Virus record (IMG/VR): IMGVR_UViG_3300042731_005494
Coordinates: 1-21,526 of that record
Length of the DNA: 21,526 bases
Source of the DNA: a virus
Reading direction: 5' to 3' (one strand)
A program made the position numbers and the translations under genes. Positions 5,784 to 13,471 of the stretch are shown here, in pieces (positions within the stretch are counted from its first letter, which is position 1; each line of letters opens with the position of its first letter). Below the pieces are notes generated by a model. That model ran no database searches, had not been told where the DNA came from, and saw only the letters and a list, made by a program, of their open reading frames with translations.

Positions 5784-5815
5784 CGAGGTGACAATGAACA
5801 TGGAGTGTCATCTCG
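5784..5815. terminator. Inverted repeat between convergent genes (possible bidirectional terminator)
   Basis: CGAGGTGACA (5784-5793) and TGTCATCTCG (5806-5815) form a 10-bp stem with one G-U pair and a 12-base loop. It lies in the 59-bp gap between the + gene ending at 5770 and the minus gene ending at 5830. There is no T-run, so termination is an inference from position. It also contains the TGACA/TGTCA core seen in the boxes at 8648-8792. Confidence 0.35.
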
Positions 5816-5829
5816 GTACCGGGGCGACA

Positions 5830-6615
5830 TCAGCCCCTGTCCCGGAACGAGCGATTAATTTTGATCTGTCGAATCACGGCATCGCGATAAATCGTGTCGA
5901 GCTTTTTGACGATGACCGCGGTGGCTGGCTCAAGCCAGCGATGGGGCGAGGTCAGCACAGTGGGGCGCTCGGCCGAGTAAATCATCTGGAGCCTGGCTCC
6001 CTTCGGCCATCCGGAGCCCTTTTTACGTCCACCGAGAACGCGGTAGAATCCAGTGGGTCGTCCCCATGGGTCGTTACGCTTGGTGACGAATACAACCCGC
6101 TGGCCGCTTGCTACGGCGTCTCTGACGGCAACGACTGTTCGTCCCCTCCCGCGCACCCGGGCCGAGGGGGGCTTGACCATGTTCAGCCAGTTTCGGCGCT
6201 GGAGCTTGCGGGTGCGCTTCCGGGCTTGCCCTTGTCCCGCTGCCGCGCTGGTGGGGATGGCGACACCGTGCTTGCCCGTCTTTTTCTGGGTGAACCCTTC
6301 CTCCTGTTTGGCCATGTATTCCTGGGTGGAGCCCACGACGGATTCCATCTGGTCGATACGACGGGCAAAGGTATTTTTGAATCGGACGGAGCGTCTTGTG
6401 AAAGTGTTCCTTTCAGTGAACTTTCTGGAAATATTTCGTTTTGCGAGATCGGAGGTTTTGTAGGCCGCGGTGTTCAGCGTGTCCCGGACGGCATAGGGGA
6501 GGGCGTGCTTCCCGAATCGGTCGAGGTCATTTTCGAGCTGTTCAATCGGCCGCATATCCAGTACAATTTTGAACAAAAGCTTCACCTCCACGTCGATCTT
6601 AACACGGGGAAGCAT
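5830..6615 (-). CDS. gpZ-like virion morphogenesis protein, inverted relative to the head genes (261 aa)
   Basis: This is a very basic 261-residue protein. It has a helical N-terminal part (PYAVRDTLNTAAYKTSDLAKR, then KFTERNTFTRRSVRF), a conserved-looking VGSTQEYMAKQEEGF, a long Arg/Lys-rich middle and a C-terminal LTSPHRWLEPATAVIVKKL. This layout matches the phage minor tail protein Z / neck-type proteins that help complete or join head and tail. The complementary frames are open too, but they lack any such pattern. The gene should sit after the FII-like gene in lambda order; here it is about 12 kb upstream and reversed. The start is uncertain: ATG 6615, GTG 6585 and ATG 6555 are all in frame and none has a convincing ribosome binding site. 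Only 18 bp separate ATG 6615 from the divergent lipoprotein start. Confidence 0.75.
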   Translation of the reverse strand: MLPRVKIDVEVKLLFKIVLDMRPIEQLENDLDRFGKHALPYAVRDTLNTAAYKTSDLAKRNISRKFTERNTFTRRSVRFKNTFARRIDQMESVVGSTQEYMAKQEEGFTQKKTGKHGVAIPTSAAAGQGQARKRTRKLQRRNWLNMVKPPSARVRGRGRTVVAVRDAVASGQRVVFVTKRNDPWGRPTGFYRVLGGRKKGSGWPKGARLQMIYSAERPTVLTSPHRWLEPATAVIVKKLDTIYRDAVIRQIKINRSFRDRG

Positions 6616-6633
6616 CGAGAAAAAGGCAAGAAA

Positions 6634-7251
6634 ATGAAAGTAAAAACATGGATTTTGGTGATTTTTTGGGTGGTTATCGGATGTGACACCGAACCGAATA
6701 AGTCAGAAGAAGAGCTCGACGGGGCAATCGAGGTCATCGATTCTGAGTCTGATACCGGGCCGGAATCAGATGCGGATACAGATGCCGATACAGACAGCGA
6801 CACGGACGCGGATACTGACTCAGACACCGATACCGATACCGATAGTGACACCGATTCTGATACGGACACAGATACGGATACCGACACGGATGCGGACGTT
6901 CCTGCGGATGGGGATTCGTGCAACGAGGCGGATGGGCGGTATTGTAATGATGGCAGTGGAACACTGAGCGGATTCTGGTATCAGGATTGCGTTTACTATG
7001 GCGGAGAGACTTTCATATCGCCGGACTGTGAGCATAGCGGTTGCTGTCAAATGCCGTCGCTTTGTCCCACAGATGATTCACGTTTTGAGTGCATAGATGG
7101 CGACGATGGGTCTAAAATAGCAGATCAATGCCGAGCAAAGGGGGGCTCAACCAGGTGGGACTATCTGTGCGGGTATGAGAGCGAGTCAAGTATAGGCACC
7201 ATATTCATAAGATATGGAGGATGCTGCGGGCCTGGAGTGGATGCTGAATAA
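6634..7251 (+). CDS. Cys-rich lipoprotein with Asp-X repeat linker (205 aa), moron candidate
   Basis: The N-terminus MKVKTWILVIFWVVIGCDTE is a lipoprotein signal with Cys17 as the lipidation site. Residues ~46-88 (bases 6769-6897) are a strict D-x-D-x repeat (x is T, S or A; 22 Asp in 43 residues). A C-terminal domain of ~115 residues with twelve cysteines follows, including two CC pairs (GCCQM, GGCCGPG). A flexible acidic stalk plus a disulfide-rich domain implies display on the cell surface or in the periplasm. Asp at +2 after the Cys is an inner-membrane retention signal in enterobacteria; whether that holds in this host is unknown. Such DTD linkers are frequent in Myxococcota lipoproteins. 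Lambda also carries a lipoprotein moron (bor) left of cos, so a lysogenic-conversion role is plausible. The start is ATG 6634, behind AAAAAGGCAAG; the frame continues upstream only as the shadow of the minus-strand gene. Confidence 0.8.
   Translation: MKVKTWILVIFWVVIGCDTEPNKSEEELDGAIEVIDSESDTGPESDADTDADTDSDTDADTDSDTDTDTDSDTDSDTDTDTDTDTDADVPADGDSCNEADGRYCNDGSGTLSGFWYQDCVYYGGETFISPDCEHSGCCQMPSLCPTDDSRFECIDGDDGSKIADQCRAKGGSTRWDYLCGYESESSIGTIFIRYGGCCGPGVDAE
6769..6897 (+). repeat. Six-base-period Asp-X coding repeat
   Basis: Forty-three codons alternate GAY with ACN, GCN, AGY or TCN, giving a 6-bp periodicity (GATACC, GACACG, GATGCG and so on). Third positions vary freely, so the repeat is old or selected at protein level. 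It may expand or contract by slippage in whole DX units without breaking the frame. Confidence 0.85.
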
Positions 7252-8388: not shown

Positions 8389-8576
8389 CTAGGCCAGCTG
8401 AGTACACCATGTTTGAGCAGTTTCGAGAACTCCAAGAGTATCGCGCCAGTGAGGATCTCAAAGAGGCGATACAGCGCGTCGTAACTGCCATTGTGGCGGG
8501 CAAAGTCACGATGGAGGATATTCAGCAGACCGTGGAGCGCAAGCAGCTACCGCGCCTTGTCTCGCGGGTCCTGTGA
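8379..8576 (+). CDS. Small helical protein (65 aa)
   Basis: The start is decided by AGGAAGG at 8364-8370, eight bases before ATG 8379; an in-frame GTG at 8346 has no such site. The 65-residue protein is predicted almost fully helical (MFEQFRELQEYRASEDLKEA, then QRVVTAIVAGKVTMEDIQQT) with a basic tail. It has no recognised family. It is the last gene before the putative cos region, comparable to the small genes at the right end of the lambda map. Confidence 0.6.
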   Translation: MIMTRPAEYTMFEQFRELQEYRASEDLKEAIQRVVTAIVAGKVTMEDIQQTVERKQLPRLVSRVL

Positions 8577-8580
8577 CACA

Positions 8581-8600
8581 TGGGGGGAGGGGGTGCCGTG
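8581..8600. other. G-rich tract, candidate cosN position
   Basis: The sequence TGGGGGGAGGGGGTGCC begins five bases after the last gene stop. It lies 47 bases before the first GTTGACA box and about 230 bases before the small terminase gene. In lambda, cosN lies just left of cosB and upstream of the small terminase gene, with GC-rich cohesive ends. Only position and composition support this; no nick sites can be read from one sequence. Confidence 0.25.
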
Positions 8601-8647
8601 TTTATATGCGAATGCCGCCTCTCGCACAATCCCAGTAAAAAAAACGA

Positions 8648-8792
8648 GTTGACATTTTTAAGGGGTGTCAACTGTTGAAAAAAAGCTGTCAACCGAGCCG
8701 TTCTCTTGTCTAGTAAATAAGACAAAAAGTGTAGTTGACACACAGGGTTGACAAATTGACATATGTGCAGTTGACAAATTGACACTGTCAAC
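8648..8792. promoter_or_regulatory. Array of nine TTGACA-core boxes (candidate cosB / operator array)
   Basis: Exact GTTGACA occurs at 8648, 8734, 8747 and 8770. Its reverse TGTCAAC occurs at 8666, 8687 and 8786. ATTGACA occurs at 8755 and 8778. The unit GTTGACAAATTGACA is present twice, 23 bp apart (8747-8761 and 8770-8784), and the first two boxes form an inverted repeat with an 11-base spacer. The array sits directly upstream of the small terminase gene, whose product has a winged HTH like lambda gpNu1, which binds R sites in cosB. Each box is also a perfect -35 hexamer, so a repressor or activator array is the alternative. Confidence 0.8.
8706..8725. repeat. Inverted repeat inside the box array
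   Basis: TTGTCT (8706-8711) and AGACAA (8720-8725) form a 6-bp dyad with an 8-base spacer. It separates the left group of three boxes from the right group of six. In lambda an IHF-bending site sits between R sites; whether this AT-rich segment (TAGTAAATAA) plays that part is unknown. Confidence 0.4.
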
Positions 8793-8807
8793 TTCCTTGC
8801 TTATCCT
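8779..8807 (+). promoter_or_regulatory. Candidate promoter for the terminase operon
   Basis: TTGACA (8779-8784) is followed after exactly 17 bp by TATCCT (8802-8807), four of six matches to the -10 consensus. Transcription would start at or next to the ATG at 8814, implying a leaderless mRNA; no Shine-Dalgarno sequence is present before 8814. The -35 element is itself one of the array boxes. Confidence 0.45.
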
Positions 8808-8813
8808 GAACGT

Positions 8814-9407
8814 ATGAGCATTATCTCAAAGGGCGACTTCTCCAAGCTCGCGGGCATTTCCAAATCGACTGTGTCGAAGCTCATCGCTCGCGGCAGGATT
8901 CCCGAGACCGACGGCGGGATCGACGTGAGCACCCCCGAAGTCAAGTCATACCTGGAATTCCGAAATCGGAAGTCAGAACCGGCGACCCCCTCCACCTCGC
9001 CTCAATCGAAGCCGAAAAACAGGAAGTCCACCCCAAAGAAGAAACCGGAACCCCTTCCCGAGGCCCAGGACGATGACGAGATCACTGCCGGAATGAAGAG
9101 CAAGACCGCTCTCGAGATCCAAAAGCTCGCCGCCCAAGCTCGCCACCTCGAGCTCAAGAACGGCCAAATTGAACGCCGCCTCGTCGCTCGGGAGGTCGTC
9201 AAGAATGGTATCTTTGTACCCATTGAAACGATGTTCGTCCGCCTGCTCTCCGAGGGATCCAAGACCATCGCCGCCAAGGTGCATCCCATGATAAAGGGCG
9301 GCGCCCCGGTCGAAGAGATTGAAGAGGAGGTCCGGAAGCGCCTCACGGCATTTATCCGCCCGGCCAAGGCCGCGATGAAAAAGGCACTGCAGGTGCCCAA
9401 GGCGTGA
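8814..9407 (+). CDS. Terminase small subunit, lambda Nu1-like (197 aa)
   Basis: The N-terminal ~50 residues form a winged helix-turn-helix: ISKGDFSKLAGISKSTVSKL, then IARGRIPETDGGIDVSTPEV. A Pro/Lys/Ser-rich linker follows (about 55-85). A helical region (KTALEIQKLAAQARHLELKN) then begins a domain suited to multimerisation and contact with the large subunit, with the C-terminus rich in Lys and Ala. In lambda, gpNu1 binds R sites in cosB and the C-terminal half binds gpA. Length (197 versus 181 in lambda), HTH and position directly before the large terminase agree. No ribosome binding site precedes ATG 8814. The gene ends by a TGATG overlap with the large subunit. A box array upstream is the obvious candidate binding site. 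Confidence 0.85.
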   Translation: MSIISKGDFSKLAGISKSTVSKLIARGRIPETDGGIDVSTPEVKSYLEFRNRKSEPATPSTSPQSKPKNRKSTPKKKPEPLPEAQDDDEITAGMKSKTALEIQKLAAQARHLELKNGQIERRLVAREVVKNGIFVPIETMFVRLLSEGSKTIAAKVHPMIKGGAPVEEIEEEVRKRLTAFIRPAKAAMKKALQVPKA

Positions 9408-11398
9408 TGCTCGCGATTGACCAGATTGGAGCAGGCTGGGCATCCGAATACGTCGGAACGTTCACCGAGGAGCTCCTCGAGCTCTCCCCGGTGGAGTTCA
9501 ACGAGCAATTCCGATACATCCCCCCGTCCATATCCCGCTTCGGTGGCCCCCTCGACATGTCGCTCACGCCCTATTGGATAGAGATACTCGAATGCATGGA
9601 CATCCGCTCCCCCGTCCGGGAGGTGTCGGTTATGAAGGGTGTTCAAGTGGCGTACACCACCCTCGGGATTGAGGCGCCGATCTTCTATGTCGCCGGACAT
9701 CTGCGGACACTTCCGGTCCTATTCGCCACTATGGACAAGGAAATGATGGGGGAGCGGATGGAGGAGAACATCATCCCGATGTTCCAGTACTCCGACATGG
9801 ACATCTTCCAGTCCGCAGACATCGGCAACTTACGGAAGACTGGAAAGACCAAGAACCACCTACAGTGGAAGGGCGGCGGCTATCTGATTCCCTACGGGGC
9901 GAATAATATCAGCAAGATCCGCTCGTTTTCCATGCAGTACATATTCATGGACGAGATAGACGCGGAGACATGGGGCGGCAAGGTCACCGGAGGGGGCGAT
10001 AAGATCGCGCTGTTCAAAAAGCGAGCGCGAGCCTTTTGGGAAGTCCGCAAAATCATGATGGGGTCGACCCCGTTGATCGAGGGAACAAGCCGGATTGAGA
10101 GGGAGTTCAAACGCGGCGACCAGCGGGTCTACAAGTGCCGCTGCCTCAAATGTGGCTATCCCCAGCACCTCAGATGGAACGGCGTCAACAAGGAGACCGG
10201 CAAGGAGTACGGTTTCAAATGGGAATACAACGCCGAGGGTCAAGTTGATGCCGATACGGTTCGGTACCACTGCAAAAACTGCGATCACGAACACTTCGAA
10301 CACGACAAGCCGAAATTCATAAACAAAGGCAACTGCTCCTGGGAGCCAACAGCCACTCCGGTAGAGCCGAATATCCGAAGCTATCACGTTCCGTCCTTCC
10401 TGTCACCGGCCGGCCTCGGGCCGTGGTACGAGATTGTAAACGACTGGGTCTCTGCCATCGACCCGAAGACTGGCAAGGTTCGTGACATCGACCTGATGCA
10501 GTCGGTTTACAACAATCATTTCGGTGTACCGTTTAAGCTCCTTGGCGGAAGAGTCCGGTTCGAAGCGGTTTCGGCTCACCGGCGCCGTTTCTACTTCAAA
10601 GGACAGATACCGAACCGCGAAATCGAGAAGTGCTGCGACTCCGGGATTCTGTTTTTAACCTGCACGGTGGATGTTCACAAAGACAATCTGGCCGTTGCCG
10701 TGTGGGGATGGACGGCCAGTTTCACATGTTGGCTGATCGATTACCAGCGATTCAAGGATGATTCGGAAAATGGCTGCGAGGAAATCAAATCACCGGCTTG
10801 GGGCAGGCTTCAGGATATGATCGACAACGGGGTATGGACGGCGGATAATGGAAAACAATACCGCCTGTCGATGACACTCATCGATTCGAGCTGGAACACC
10901 TCTATCGTCGTCGAATTTTGTCAGCAGTGGGAATTCTGGGTGTTCCCAATCATGGGGCGAGAGAGGCCTGCCAAAGCTCAGACGATCAAGGAATTTGCCG
11001 AATTCACAACCCAGGCGGGGACAATAGGGTACAGAATCCTGGTCGACCACTACAAGGACCGGCTTGCCCCCGTGCTACGCAGGGATTGGCACCCGTCCGA
11101 AGGATCCCAGCCATCCTATACCTTCAACGCGCCACTTGATACCGATGACGACGAACTCAAAGAGTTGACCAAGGAATATAGAAGAAAGAAGGAATGGCCC
11201 AATGGCTACGTGACCTACTATTGGCACCGTCCCCATGGCGCTCAAAACGAACTTTGGGATCTCATGGTTTACGGGCACTGCTCGGTGGAGATTCTTGCCT
11301 GGTGGATTTGTGTGAGAGAACACCAGATGGAAGGGATCGACTGGTACCAGTTCTGGCAGTACTGCAAGAGCGGGGTGTTCTGGAAGGAGGCAGCCTAA
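9407..11398 (+). CDS. Terminase large subunit, lambda gpA family (663 aa)
   Basis: The protein matches the GpA packaging ATPase/endonuclease family. MKGVQVAYTT (Lys77) corresponds to the deviant Walker A of lambda gpA, in which the Lys precedes the loop (lambda Lys76). YIFMDEIDAE (Asp182, Glu183) is the Walker B. A Cys-rich ribbon follows (YKCRCLKCGY, then YHCKNCDHEH, about residues 241-295). The C-terminal nuclease domain shows LTCTVDVHKDNLAVAVWGW and LIDSSWNTS. It drives DNA into the prohead and cuts at cos. Length, 663 residues, is close to lambda gpA (641). I chose ATG 9407 (TGATG overlap) over the in-frame GTG 9404. The stop overlaps the stop of the convergent minus gene by a few bases, leaving no terminator between them. 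Confidence 0.95.
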   Translation: MLAIDQIGAGWASEYVGTFTEELLELSPVEFNEQFRYIPPSISRFGGPLDMSLTPYWIEILECMDIRSPVREVSVMKGVQVAYTTLGIEAPIFYVAGHLRTLPVLFATMDKEMMGERMEENIIPMFQYSDMDIFQSADIGNLRKTGKTKNHLQWKGGGYLIPYGANNISKIRSFSMQYIFMDEIDAETWGGKVTGGGDKIALFKKRARAFWEVRKIMMGSTPLIEGTSRIEREFKRGDQRVYKCRCLKCGYPQHLRWNGVNKETGKEYGFKWEYNAEGQVDADTVRYHCKNCDHEHFEHDKPKFINKGNCSWEPTATPVEPNIRSYHVPSFLSPAGLGPWYEIVNDWVSAIDPKTGKVRDIDLMQSVYNNHFGVPFKLLGGRVRFEAVSAHRRRFYFKGQIPNREIEKCCDSGILFLTCTVDVHKDNLAVAVWGWTASFTCWLIDYQRFKDDSENGCEEIKSPAWGRLQDMIDNGVWTADNGKQYRLSMTLIDSSWNTSIVVEFCQQWEFWVFPIMGRERPAKAQTIKEFAEFTTQAGTIGYRILVDHYKDRLAPVLRRDWHPSEGSQPSYTFNAPLDTDDDELKELTKEYRRKKEWPNGYVTYYWHRPHGAQNELWDLMVYGHCSVEILAWWICVREHQMEGIDWYQFWQYCKSGVFWKEAA

Positions 11399-11673
11399 GC
11401 CCATACCGCCCAAATCTGGACGCCTTTCTCACCAGGATGTACGCCAGCGGTCCCTATCTTGACAGCCCGCCCGGCGCGCTTCTTCCGTTTCCCGTATCGC
11501 TCCGGGTCCCCTCCCCCGTGGGCACATGTCTCGATTCTGAGCCGTGAAAGCTCATCTTCGGTGAGTCCCTTTATCACCTCGGCGAGCCGGTCGATCCGCT
11601 CTTGGGTGATGCCGCTCGGGACGTTCGCTTCGAGTAGTAGGCGAGCGGCCGTCACGGCCGCGTCGGTGCTCAT
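11395..11673 (-). CDS. Hypothetical protein, last gene of the minus-strand cassette (92 aa)
   Basis: ATG 11673 lies behind AAGGGGTGAGAG, and a dyad (GGCCGCGACC on the + strand, 11686-11695) abuts that site. The N-terminal ~60 residues look helical (SGITQERIDRLAEVIKGLTE, then DELSRLRIETC). The C-terminal third is basic and Gly-rich (GGGDPERYGKRKKRAGRAVK). No family is recognised. The start overlaps the preceding 25-codon frame as ATGA, and the stop overlaps the terminase stop tail to tail. Confidence 0.6.
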   Translation of the reverse strand: MSTDAAVTAARLLLEANVPSGITQERIDRLAEVIKGLTEDELSRLRIETCAHGGGDPERYGKRKKRAGRAVKIGTAGVHPGEKGVQIWAVWA

Positions 11674-11747
11674 CTCTCACCCCTTGGCCGCGACCACGGC
11701 AACCTGTGATTTCTGTGACGCTTCTCCATTCGGACGTAGTCTGTCAT
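11670..11747 (-). CDS. Translationally coupled 25-codon frame
   Basis: Its ATG (11745-11747) overlaps the TGA of the upstream gene as ATGA, and its TGA (11670-11672) overlaps the ATG of the downstream gene as ATGA. The peptide would be very basic, beginning MTDYVRMEKRHRNH and ending PRGER. It may be a real micro-protein or only a coupling bridge that lets ribosomes reach the last gene. No independent ribosome binding site is evident. Confidence 0.35.
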   Translation of the reverse strand: MTDYVRMEKRHRNHRLPWSRPRGER

Positions 11748-12232
11748 ACTGTCTCCGCCTCCAACAGCTCCGCCAGTACAAGGCACGCCTTGTTTTCCCA
11801 CACAGGAAGATCTGGACTGTCAACTCGAGCAGCTTTTTGGTATTTTTCGTGGTCTCGCAACCACTTGGCCTCCTTGACAATAGCACTCCGAAATGCATCG
11901 TGCCAACCTTTTGGCCCGAAATGGAACTGAGTCAAATGCGGACTCATCCACGCAATCAACTTACGGGCCCAGGACTCCGAGTCGTCTTCGCTGGCGCACG
12001 ACTCAATCAACATATCGTAGGTTAAGAATGCACAGCTTAATTTACAGGAGGAATCTGAAAGAAGTTCTTCTTTCACCGCCTCTCGTAATGGATTTAATAT
12101 TTGCTCTCTGGACAATTGCCAAGCCCAACCCGATGGGTCCTCCTTCAGACAATCCACGACACGCTGTTGCTTAGAATCTAATTCCAACTCTGTCGGCCCT
12201 CCGGCCATTACTTGATCTAATAATTCTCCCAT
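11744..12232 (-). CDS. Hypothetical protein of the minus-strand cassette (162 aa)
   Basis: I set the start at ATG 12232 because AAAGGAG lies eight bases upstream, preceded by a dyad at 12251-12265; in-frame ATGs at 12304 and 12334 lie inside the upstream gene and lack a site. The 162-residue protein is helical and Trp-rich: LELDSKQQRVVDCLKEDP, GWAWQLSREQILNPLREAV, a Cys-containing middle (SSCKLSCAFLTYDMLIESC), and SPHLTQFHFGPKGWHDAFRS towards the C-terminus. No known domain is recognised. There is no signal peptide or membrane helix, so it is cytoplasmic. As a moron product it could be a defence or exclusion factor, but no motif shows this. Confidence 0.6.
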   Translation of the reverse strand: MGELLDQVMAGGPTELELDSKQQRVVDCLKEDPSGWAWQLSREQILNPLREAVKEELLSDSSCKLSCAFLTYDMLIESCASEDDSESWARKLIAWMSPHLTQFHFGPKGWHDAFRSAIVKEAKWLRDHEKYQKAARVDSPDLPVWENKACLVLAELLEAETV

Positions 12233-12250
12233 CTTTACACTCCTTTGCTT

Positions 12251-12265
12251 GGCCGATAATCGACC
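12251..12265 (-). promoter_or_regulatory. Dyad abutting the RBS of the 12232 gene
   Basis: On the minus strand GGTCGATTATCGGCC is followed by AAGCAAAGGAG and then the ATG 18 bases after the dyad. In RNA all seven positions pair if one G-U is allowed. It is a partial third copy of the element at 12679-12740 and 12998-13059. Confidence 0.5.
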
Positions 12266-12266
12266 A

Positions 12267-12662
12267 CTATATGTTTTCTTCGGCGACGTAGATTCGGACG
12301 CCATCGCAATCCTCCACCCAGCCCCATGCTCCATTCTTGATTGCTGCCGGCGTAAGGCCGGCCTCGATAATCATTTTGTCACGAGCATCCTCAATCGAGG
12401 ATGCCTGAATTATCCCGCTTTCTCCGTCTGTTTTGTAGCAATATTGGTGAGTATCGGCAGCCATTTTCCACAAATAATTACCCCTAACAGTCTCCGCCTT
12501 CTTTATGGGACAAGTGTCACACTCATCCCCGACTCTTCCGGGGCACTCGCCACAGTCAAAATACTTCAGGACGCTTTCTGCATGTGCGAGCGTGAACTCT
12601 CCTTCGTATTGACACATTGCTGCCCATAGTTCGCTCTTTGTCCATGTTTTTTTCGTATTCAT
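12267..12662 (-). CDS. Cys-cluster protein of the minus-strand cassette (131 aa)
   Basis: ATG 12662 follows ACAAGGAGTATAAG. The 131-residue protein starts with a helical region (KKTWTKSELWAAMCQYEGEF), then a cysteine cluster YFDCGECPGRVGDECDTCPI (C-x2-CP...C-x2-CP), which could bind zinc or a metal cluster. After a linker, the C-terminal part SSIEDARDKMIIEAGLTP, then GAWGWVEDCDGVRIYV, looks like a compact alpha/beta unit. No known family is recognised. Spacing to the next gene is 34 bp and to the upstream gene 74 bp, the latter filled by the 62-bp element. Confidence 0.65.
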   Translation of the reverse strand: MNTKKTWTKSELWAAMCQYEGEFTLAHAESVLKYFDCGECPGRVGDECDTCPIKKAETVRGNYLWKMAADTHQYCYKTDGESGIIQASSIEDARDKMIIEAGLTPAAIKNGAWGWVEDCDGVRIYVAEENI

Positions 12663-12678
12663 CTTATACTCCTTGTCT

Positions 12679-12740
12679 TGGCCGAATCGGCCTCCACTCC
12701 CACCGTCACATAGTGGCGGGCAGGGTGGGGGTCGGTTCAG
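12679..12740 (-). repeat. 62-bp intergenic element, copy 2
   Basis: The copy spans from the stop codon of the gene at 12737 to the spacer before the ribosome binding site of the gene at 12662. It is the same length as copy 1 (12998-13059). The last 20 bases on the + strand (12721-12740) are identical between copies, the first 26 are nearly so, and the middle 16 are unrelated. It includes the perfect dyad GGCCGAATCGGCC (12680-12692) and an inner GGTGGG/CCCACC stem. Confidence 0.75.
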
Positions 12741-12982
12741 CGATCACATTTAAATCTGAATCTAGGCGCCGGTCGGCGCCTCTGAAAATCGATTGCTTCT
12801 TGTGGAGCAATAGGAAGCAGCGTACAGTCTGGCTCCGAACACTCCCGCCACCCTCCCGTATAGGAGAACAATTTCCATGTTCTCGACTCTTTCTCAAAGA
12901 GAAAGAGTCTTCCTTCTATGTTGTATCCCCATTCGGGGTATTTCGGATCGATACCACATACTTCTTTGTAATGCATTTTCAC
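12737..12982 (-). CDS. Small aromatic-rich protein of the minus-strand cassette (81 aa)
   Basis: GTG 12982 is six bases after GGAG (AAAAAAGGAGAGCAAAGTG); an ATG two codons later (12976) is the alternative. The product reads MHYKEVCGIDPKYPEWGYNI, then EGRLFLFEKESRTWKLFSYT and a Cys pair (REC, PDC), ending in a basic tail RRRPAPRFRFKCDR. The pattern of short beta-strands with many Trp, Tyr and Phe suggests a small beta-sheet fold. No family is recognised. Confidence 0.6.
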   Translation of the reverse strand: MKMHYKEVCGIDPKYPEWGYNIEGRLFLFEKESRTWKLFSYTGGWRECSEPDCTLLPIAPQEAIDFQRRRPAPRFRFKCDR

Positions 12983-12997
12983 TTTGCTCTCCTTTTT

Positions 12998-13059
12998 TGG
13001 TCGAATCAGTCGCCACTCCCACCCCCGAGATGTCTGGGACAGGGTGGGGGTCGGTTCAG
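12998..13059 (-). repeat. 62-bp intergenic element, copy 1
   Basis: It runs from the stop codon of the gene at 13056 to the spacer before the ribosome binding site at 12982. It shares its outer parts with copy 2 at 12679-12740. Inside, CCCACCC and GGGTGGG can pair in the transcript. The distal part (12999-13014) is a diverged form of the GGYCGA...TCGGCC dyad. Confidence 0.75.
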
Positions 13060-13223
13060 TCTGCAACGTAGATAAGACTGGGGTCTTCGCTGGCGATTTC
13101 CTCAGCATCCTCTACCGAGATGTCCTCTCGCGCGTCCTCAGTAGGATCGGCGTATTTGCTGAGCTTGGCTTCTGGGTTTGCTCGCTTGAATTCGATGGCT
13201 TCGTGTCCTGTTAAGTTTGTCAT
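13056..13223 (-). CDS. Small acidic protein, first gene of the minus-strand cassette (55 aa)
   Basis: ATG 13223 follows AAAGGAGAGACAG, a strong site. The 55-residue acidic product reads MTNLTGHEAIEFKRANPEAK, then LSKYADPTEDAREDISVEDA and ends EDPSLIYVAD. The charge pattern and codon use look coding. I think I have seen similar short phage proteins, but I cannot name a family. It is the promoter-proximal gene of an operon of six. Confidence 0.65.
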   Translation of the reverse strand: MTNLTGHEAIEFKRANPEAKLSKYADPTEDAREDISVEDAEEIASEDPSLIYVAD

Positions 13224-13240
13224 CTGTCTCTCCTTTGCTC

Positions 13241-13262
13241 ATGGTCGCTTCATTGCGACCAT
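13241..13262 (-). promoter_or_regulatory. 5'-leader hairpin of the minus-strand operon
   Basis: ATGGTCGC and GCGACCAT form a perfect 8-bp stem with a 6-base loop. It lies within a few bases of the predicted transcript 5' end and 17 bases before the ATG at 13223, next to AAAGGAG. It may stabilise the mRNA or control ribosome access. Confidence 0.6.
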
Positions 13263-13270
13263 CTGTACCT

Positions 13271-13299
13271 ACTATAGCGGACACATCCGGATGTGTCCA
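13271..13299 (-). promoter_or_regulatory. Promoter of the minus-strand cassette
   Basis: On the minus strand TGGACA (13299-13294) and TATAGT (13276-13271) are separated by exactly 17 bp; each matches five of six consensus positions for a sigma-70 type promoter. The predicted start is near 13264, 41 bases before the first gene. The spacer is almost filled by a perfect palindrome, so repression is expected. Confidence 0.65.
13279..13298. promoter_or_regulatory. Perfect 20-bp palindromic operator
   Basis: GGACACATCCGGATGTGTCC is fully self-complementary. It lies between and partly over the -35 and -10 of the minus-strand promoter, where a bound dimer would block RNA polymerase. I find no second copy in the window. 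Confidence 0.75.
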
Positions 13300-13330
13300 G
13301 CAAAAAAGTGAATCAGGCAAAATCTTTTTT

Positions 13331-13471
13331 TGAGACAATCTAAATAGCTGTATTTATTATATAATTATACAAGTGAGACATTTTTATACATTCTCGCTTG
13401 ACCAGTGAGACACTAATGAGACATACTTGTCTCAGAGAGACATTTTTGTCTCAATTTTGGGCTATGAGACA
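13331..13471. promoter_or_regulatory. Array of eight GAGACA-core boxes before the W-to-tail operon
   Basis: TGAGACA occurs at 13331, 13374, 13406, 13417 and 13465. The reverse TGTCTCA is at 13428 and 13447, and AGAGACA at 13436. Spacing in the core is 11, 11, 8 and 11 bp, near one helical turn, so bound proteins would sit on one face. The last box overlaps the ATG at 13471. An AT-rich stretch with TATAAT (13360-13365) lies inside, without a well-spaced -35. The region must provide expression of the late genes downstream of the minus-strand cassette. Confidence 0.8.

Follow-up and report, generated by a model that had tools for sequence, protein, structure and literature searches.

In phage lambda, cos comprises cosQ, cosN and cosB, the last of which carries the sites R3, I1, R2 and R1 (PMC9026076). 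R3 occupies bp 50-65, within which the small terminase subunit (TerS) is thought to make its contacts at positions 55-63, a stretch of about 9 bp, and removal of 3 bp between cosN and cosB does severe harm (PMC9026076). Phage N15 has a simple cosB made up of a single R3 and a non-essential inverted rR2 (PMC4669245, PMC9026076). Differences in the recognition helix of TerS and in the R sites account for the packaging specificities of lambda and 21 (PMC4669245), and it is on experiments with lambda, 21 and N15 that lambda-like packaging specificity has rested so far.

The window analysed here, 21,526 bases long, is the whole of a virus record that covers part of a genome; it encodes a terminase of the lambda kind. 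The terS gene (8814-9407, plus strand, 197 aa) is followed by a gene for a lambda gpA-type large terminase, terL (9404-11398, plus strand; PF05876, PF20454), and then by portal, S49-type protease and E-type capsid genes. Residues 1-145 of TerS match phrog_57, the PHROG terminase small subunit family (E 4.5e-10), to which lambda Nu1 also belongs; a Pfam scan gave no match of the window TerS to PF07471 (Phage_Nu1), which lambda Nu1 matches at 2.5e-100. The predicted structure of its N-terminus contains helices at residues 6-13, 17-25 and 41-53 and a strand at 35-37 (pLDDT about 80), with the recognition helix placed at about residues 17-25. In a fold search the best PDB matches of this region were MerR-type helix-turn-helix (HTH) proteins, at weak scores (E > 0.3), and a PDB sequence search with TerS returned nothing useful. 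Elsewhere in the window, terL and the portal gene are separated by a block of minus-strand open reading frames (ORFs; 11395-13338), of which the two that were examined (11744-12334 and 12267-12662) are without a family match. A minor tail protein gene (5830-6615, minus strand; phrog_4688, E 2e-36) is located to the left of cos, opposite to the other late genes. In addition, the ORF at 5788-7251 contains an Asp/Ser/Thr-rich codon run (DTDADTDSDTD, about 6580-6920), the opposite strand of which shows matching long open frames.

Upstream of terS, seven exact copies of GTTGACA or TGTCAAC, four direct and three inverted, are packed into 145 bp (8648-8792). With 8598 counted as bp 1 (see below), they are box 1 (8648-8654, plus strand, bp 51-57), the inverted boxes 2 (8666-8672, minus strand, bp 70) and 3 (8687-8693, minus strand, bp 91), the direct box 4 (8734-8740, plus strand, bp 137), boxes 5 and 6 (plus strand, bp 150 and 173), and the inverted box 7 (8786-8792, minus strand, bp 190), which lies within the spacer of a putative promoter. 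Boxes 5 and 6 belong to a 15-bp unit, GTTGACAAATTGACA, that is present twice (8747-8761 and 8770-8784) at a spacing of 23 bp, and two ATTGACA sequences occur at 8755 and 8778. Only three further GTTGACA boxes are scattered over the other 21 kb, with 2.9 expected for the whole window; when any repeated 7-mer was counted per 145-bp stretch, the observed 7 compared with a maximum of 4 in 200 Markov-simulated windows. Count and simulation thus confirm that the array is real, and they bear out an earlier note on this DNA, which had described the seven exact and two ATTGACA boxes as well as the doubled unit and inverted pairs.

The position of the array relative to cos was established by comparison with relatives. 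TerL relatives were collected from phage records and IMG/VR; single-protein scans of viral contigs with TerS or TerL gave no matches and alignment queries were required, a nine-member TerS alignment being too diverse as a query and a five-member one returning no contigs beyond those in the set. A search with a guessed cosN pattern had no matches. Many of the relatives share a contig start base, which lies about 87 bp before terS in a wider clade and about 170-190 bp before it in the clade of the window, and complete contigs end at a fixed distance past a GGGTCCT or GGTACTG word. The 15-16 nt with which complete relatives begin recur at their end, reading GTGTTTATATGCGTAC in L035 and L036, ATGTTTGTATGCGCCC in L085, and GTTTTGATTCGACCG in L023 and L039. 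An assembly artefact was rejected because independent contigs end at the same homologous base, and the simplest cause would be staggered cutting followed by fill-in of the 5' overhangs when libraries were made. The ends of complete relatives map to window position 8598, and this homology indicates a putative cohesive end (cosN), GTGTTTATATGCGAAT, at 8598-8613 (plus strand); judging from these relatives, the window phage itself would be cut at 8598/8613, giving an overhang of 16 nt as opposed to the 12 nt of lambda. A cosQ-like GGGTCCT (8566-8572, plus strand) stands 32 bp to the left of the cohesive end; the same word is found 30 bp before the first base of lambda and also in L035, L036, L014, L043 and L079. 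To the right, the cohesive end is flanked by a conserved sequence, GCCGCCTCTCGCACAATCCC (8614-8633, plus strand), in which the word CTCGCACAA is kept across the wider clade.

Measured from this end, the array spans bp 51-195 and terS starts at bp 217 (191 in lambda). The first box begins at bp 51 in six lineages (the window, L084/L085, L035, L036, L014 and L015) and at bp 53 in L271, with one missing terminal base assumed for L084 and L014 (from L085 and a TGCG alignment) and the contig start of L015 taken as bp 1; in lambda, GTTTCC begins at bp 54. Box 1 would accordingly be the equivalent of R3, and the order of cosQ, cohesive end, R3-position site, inverted site, promoter-side sites and terS is that of lambda. 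The proposal in the earlier note that the array has the location of lambda cosB thus agrees with lambda in its cosQ word, cohesive end, R3 position and terS position. The note had also considered the boxes shorter than the lambda sites; this does not really hold, since the contacts of TerS within R3 are believed to cover about 9 bp only (PMC9026076). The window has at least seven short boxes of another sequence, compared with three 16-bp R sites in lambda.

These positions also bear on a different explanation, according to which the boxes act mainly as operators at the terS promoter, through which TerS or another regulator represses terS, and packaging recognition lies elsewhere. The first box keeps a fixed spacing from the cohesive end, whereas terS begins at differing distances from it: about 60 bp away in L271, 110-166 bp in the window clade and as much as 1.6 kb. 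The array of L014 is separated from terS by 1.5 kb that include a C-5 cytosine methylase gene and small ORFs; the boxes are at the genome end and absent at terS, and the 47-kb contig has no GGTTAACC elsewhere. L014 as a relative without the array was rejected, because the array lies at the other end of the insertion. No relative that keeps the terminase and has lost the array, a case named in the earlier note as refuting its reading, was found in the clade of the window. The Vibrio phages L005, L009 and L199 present an arrangement that favours operators: their GTTTCC boxes adjoin the terS promoter and stay with it in L005 and L199, despite an extra ORF (L005:160-1008, L199:174-977) that splits the cos-to-terS leader between the record start and the boxes and is without a Pfam family match. 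In this branch an operator role may dominate, and the arrangements of L014 and of the Vibrio phages both fit a site with two roles. An operator function is compatible with cosB. The notion that the boxes are mainly operators is considered improbable for the window, even though further evidence for such a function comes from the wider clade (see below).

Additional support for recognition by TerS is provided by the sequences of the boxes. They read GTTGAC in the window, L084/L085 and L271, GTTAAC in L035, L036, L014 and L015, and GTTTCC in the Vibrio phages and lambda. In the wider clade there is a pair of boxes, spaced by 10-11 bp and located near bp 41-47 and bp 52-58, with the words TTAACC, TTTACC, TTTCACC, TTGACC, TTTGCC and TTTGCA. 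Every box fits TT-NNN, in which NNN is phage-specific and falls into at least seven classes (GAC, AAC, TAC, CAC, GCC, GCA and TCC). The window clade itself consists of few lineages; covariation was analysed in 31 non-redundant wider-clade loci, the box-2 triplet being compared with every TerS column. The strongest columns correspond to L041 positions 18 and 20 (z 6.8 and 6.2), in the first part of the recognition helix; codon 2 of TerS also ranks high, as expected given that the start codon is in many cases overlapped by a third box in inverted orientation. In the reverse scan of DNA columns against TerS positions 18/20, z values were 4.5 and 5.2 for box 2 and 2.4 and 3.2 for box 1, with a lesser peak just past box 2 (3.9) and values near zero over cosN. 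With the rest of TerS held fixed, similarity of box 2 still followed similarity of the helix (partial Mantel r 0.49, p 0.0005), and the controls gave r -0.08 for the cosN flank and r 0.00 for the spacer; such tests reduce phylogenetic effects and do not remove them. The exact box-2 triplet is repeated in box 1 at 13 of the 31 loci (mean 4.4 and maximum 12 in 5000 shuffles). Boxes and recognition helix thus covary in related phages, the comparison that the earlier note had suggested.

Within the window clade, helices paired with GTTGAC read SKSTVSKLI, SPSAVSKLI and SKSAISKMI, and those paired with GTTAAC read SKAAVSKAI, TRSAVTMAT, SRPAISKAV and SKPAITRAI. The residue two before the end of these strings, L or M as opposed to A, splits the two groups (Fisher p 0.03, for a position chosen post hoc). 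The covariation in the wider clade bears on the suggestion that the boxes are bound by an unrelated regulator of phage or host, or by a replication initiator, as in an iteron-type origin close to cos. Short repeats in both orientations within an AT-rich region, where GC falls to 0.40, would resemble iterons, but the boxes still track the TerS helix once the remainder of TerS is taken into account, and phages with different boxes keep their position relative to the cohesive end. This alternative was therefore rejected as very unlikely. Instead, the GTTGACA boxes are very probably docking sites for the phage's own TerS beside the genome cut point, and the whole is best explained, with high confidence, as the cosB (8648-8792) of a lambda-type cos that includes cosQ at 8566 and the cohesive end at 8598-8613. 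A cosQ and cosN that are kept while the recognition element at the R3 position changes are also seen in the cos sites of PICI with Rpp proteins (PMC9026076); these satellites redirect the TerS of their helper, whereas the window phage would use its own.

The relationship between cosB and the terS promoter was also examined. A putative sigma-70-type promoter (TTGACA-17-TATCCT, 8779-8807, plus strand) has its -35 element at 8779-8784 and its -10 element at 8802-8807; it matches the consensus at 10 of 12 positions, and about 0.8 such sites would be expected by chance in the region. The earlier note had observed that every box is a -35 hexamer. Each does contain TTGACA, but only the copy at 8779-8784 has a -10-like hexamer at a proper spacing (17 bp), and the coincidence would mostly reflect the box sequence of this lineage. 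A row of alternative sigma-70 promoters, which the consensus inside each box could otherwise suggest, was rejected for want of a second proper -10; in addition, three boxes face away from terS, and relatives carry GTTAAC, which holds no -35 consensus, at the same places. Such a row is accordingly regarded as extremely unlikely. In L035, L036 and L014, one TTGACA is kept at the homologous promoter place despite GTTAAC boxes; it must therefore be held for another reason and is most likely retained as a -35 element.

The case for a promoter is stronger in the wider clade, where box 2 takes the place of the -35 element and a -10 with at least four of six matches follows at 16-18 bp in 24 of the 31 loci, compared with 1.9 expected. 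Moreover, the third inverted copy often reaches over the start codon, and the synonymous codon for Val2 tends to follow the box (7/12, p 0.017). These observations favour operators. In the window, the sequence at 8779-8807 is a likely terS promoter inside cosB; as the overlap of box and -35 recurs in the clade, coupling of cosB to terS expression through TerS autorepression is plausible. In the titles and abstracts found, a partial coverage of the literature, there was no report of a small terminase subunit that represses its own promoter or coevolves with the sites it binds. A broader proposal is that cosB of this large clade is also the terS operator, its TerS sites overlapping the -35 slot and often the start codon, with one TerS-DNA contact setting both packaging-site occupancy and terminase supply and having diverged into many mutually exclusive specificities, and that phages of the window type add a protein on a palindrome in place of IHF; this is put forward tentatively, as somewhat less probable than its opposite.

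The palindrome in question, TTGTCTAGTAAATAAGACAA (8706-8725), is located in the gap between the box groups, at the place of the IHF site of lambda. It has the form TTGTCT-8-AGACAA, and each of the five lineages of the window clade carries such a palindrome in its cos while the surroundings change; its arms TTGTC/GACAA are exact in four lineages and carry one change in L036, and it is otherwise nearly absent from window-clade genomes. Unlike in lambda, the IHF consensus WATCAANNNNTTR was not found in the array with up to one mismatch, the I1 position included. I1 is not essential to the lambda-type cosB class, because N15 also lacks it, and the palindrome is a possible I1 substitute.

As a mechanism, it can be proposed that the N-terminal HTH of TerS binds the GTTGACA boxes and that box 1, as the R3 equivalent, determines how far away the cut is made. 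TerS would then anchor the gpA-type TerL, which would introduce a staggered nick at 8598/8613 from which packaging would begin. The extra direct and inverted boxes may raise occupancy or support a looped complex, and TerS bound to the box in the promoter spacer would block RNA polymerase, probably lowering its own transcription.

The kind of site is already known, as is the specificity between recognition helix and R site in lambda, 21 and N15, in which both differ together between phages (PMC4669245). What appears new is the number of boxes, an R3 position that stays constant through many specificities, the palindrome, and the likely promoter within cosB; in contrast to lambda, 21 and N15, at least seven box classes are seen here in natural relatives at one fixed position. 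Like N15, the wider clade has a compact cosB with a box at the R3 position, and terS starts at about bp 87 (bp 89 in N15); unlike N15, it has a pair of boxes spaced by one helical turn, in many cases with a third at the start codon, and an overlap with a promoter, and the array of the window is complex. In this natural series the R3-position box stays fixed while its bases change with two or so residues of the TerS helix, which makes a recognition code testable. It also provides a rule for locating cos and orienting genomes in metagenomic phages of the clade, and suggests that cosB can double as a terS operator.

Another feature of the wider clade concerns the domain composition of TerS. In 11 of the 22 TerS scanned (e.g., L041:88-963), an FtsK gamma domain (PF09397, E 3e-15) follows the N-terminal HTH, and PHROG 13700 labels the proteins bearing it as FtsK/SpoIIIE-like. 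A KOPS-like word, GGGNAGGG, is present between box 2 and the -10 element in 4 of 50 cos leaders (L002, L017, L020 and L229), and together with the FtsK gamma domain it suggests that these TerS may read a second DNA word.
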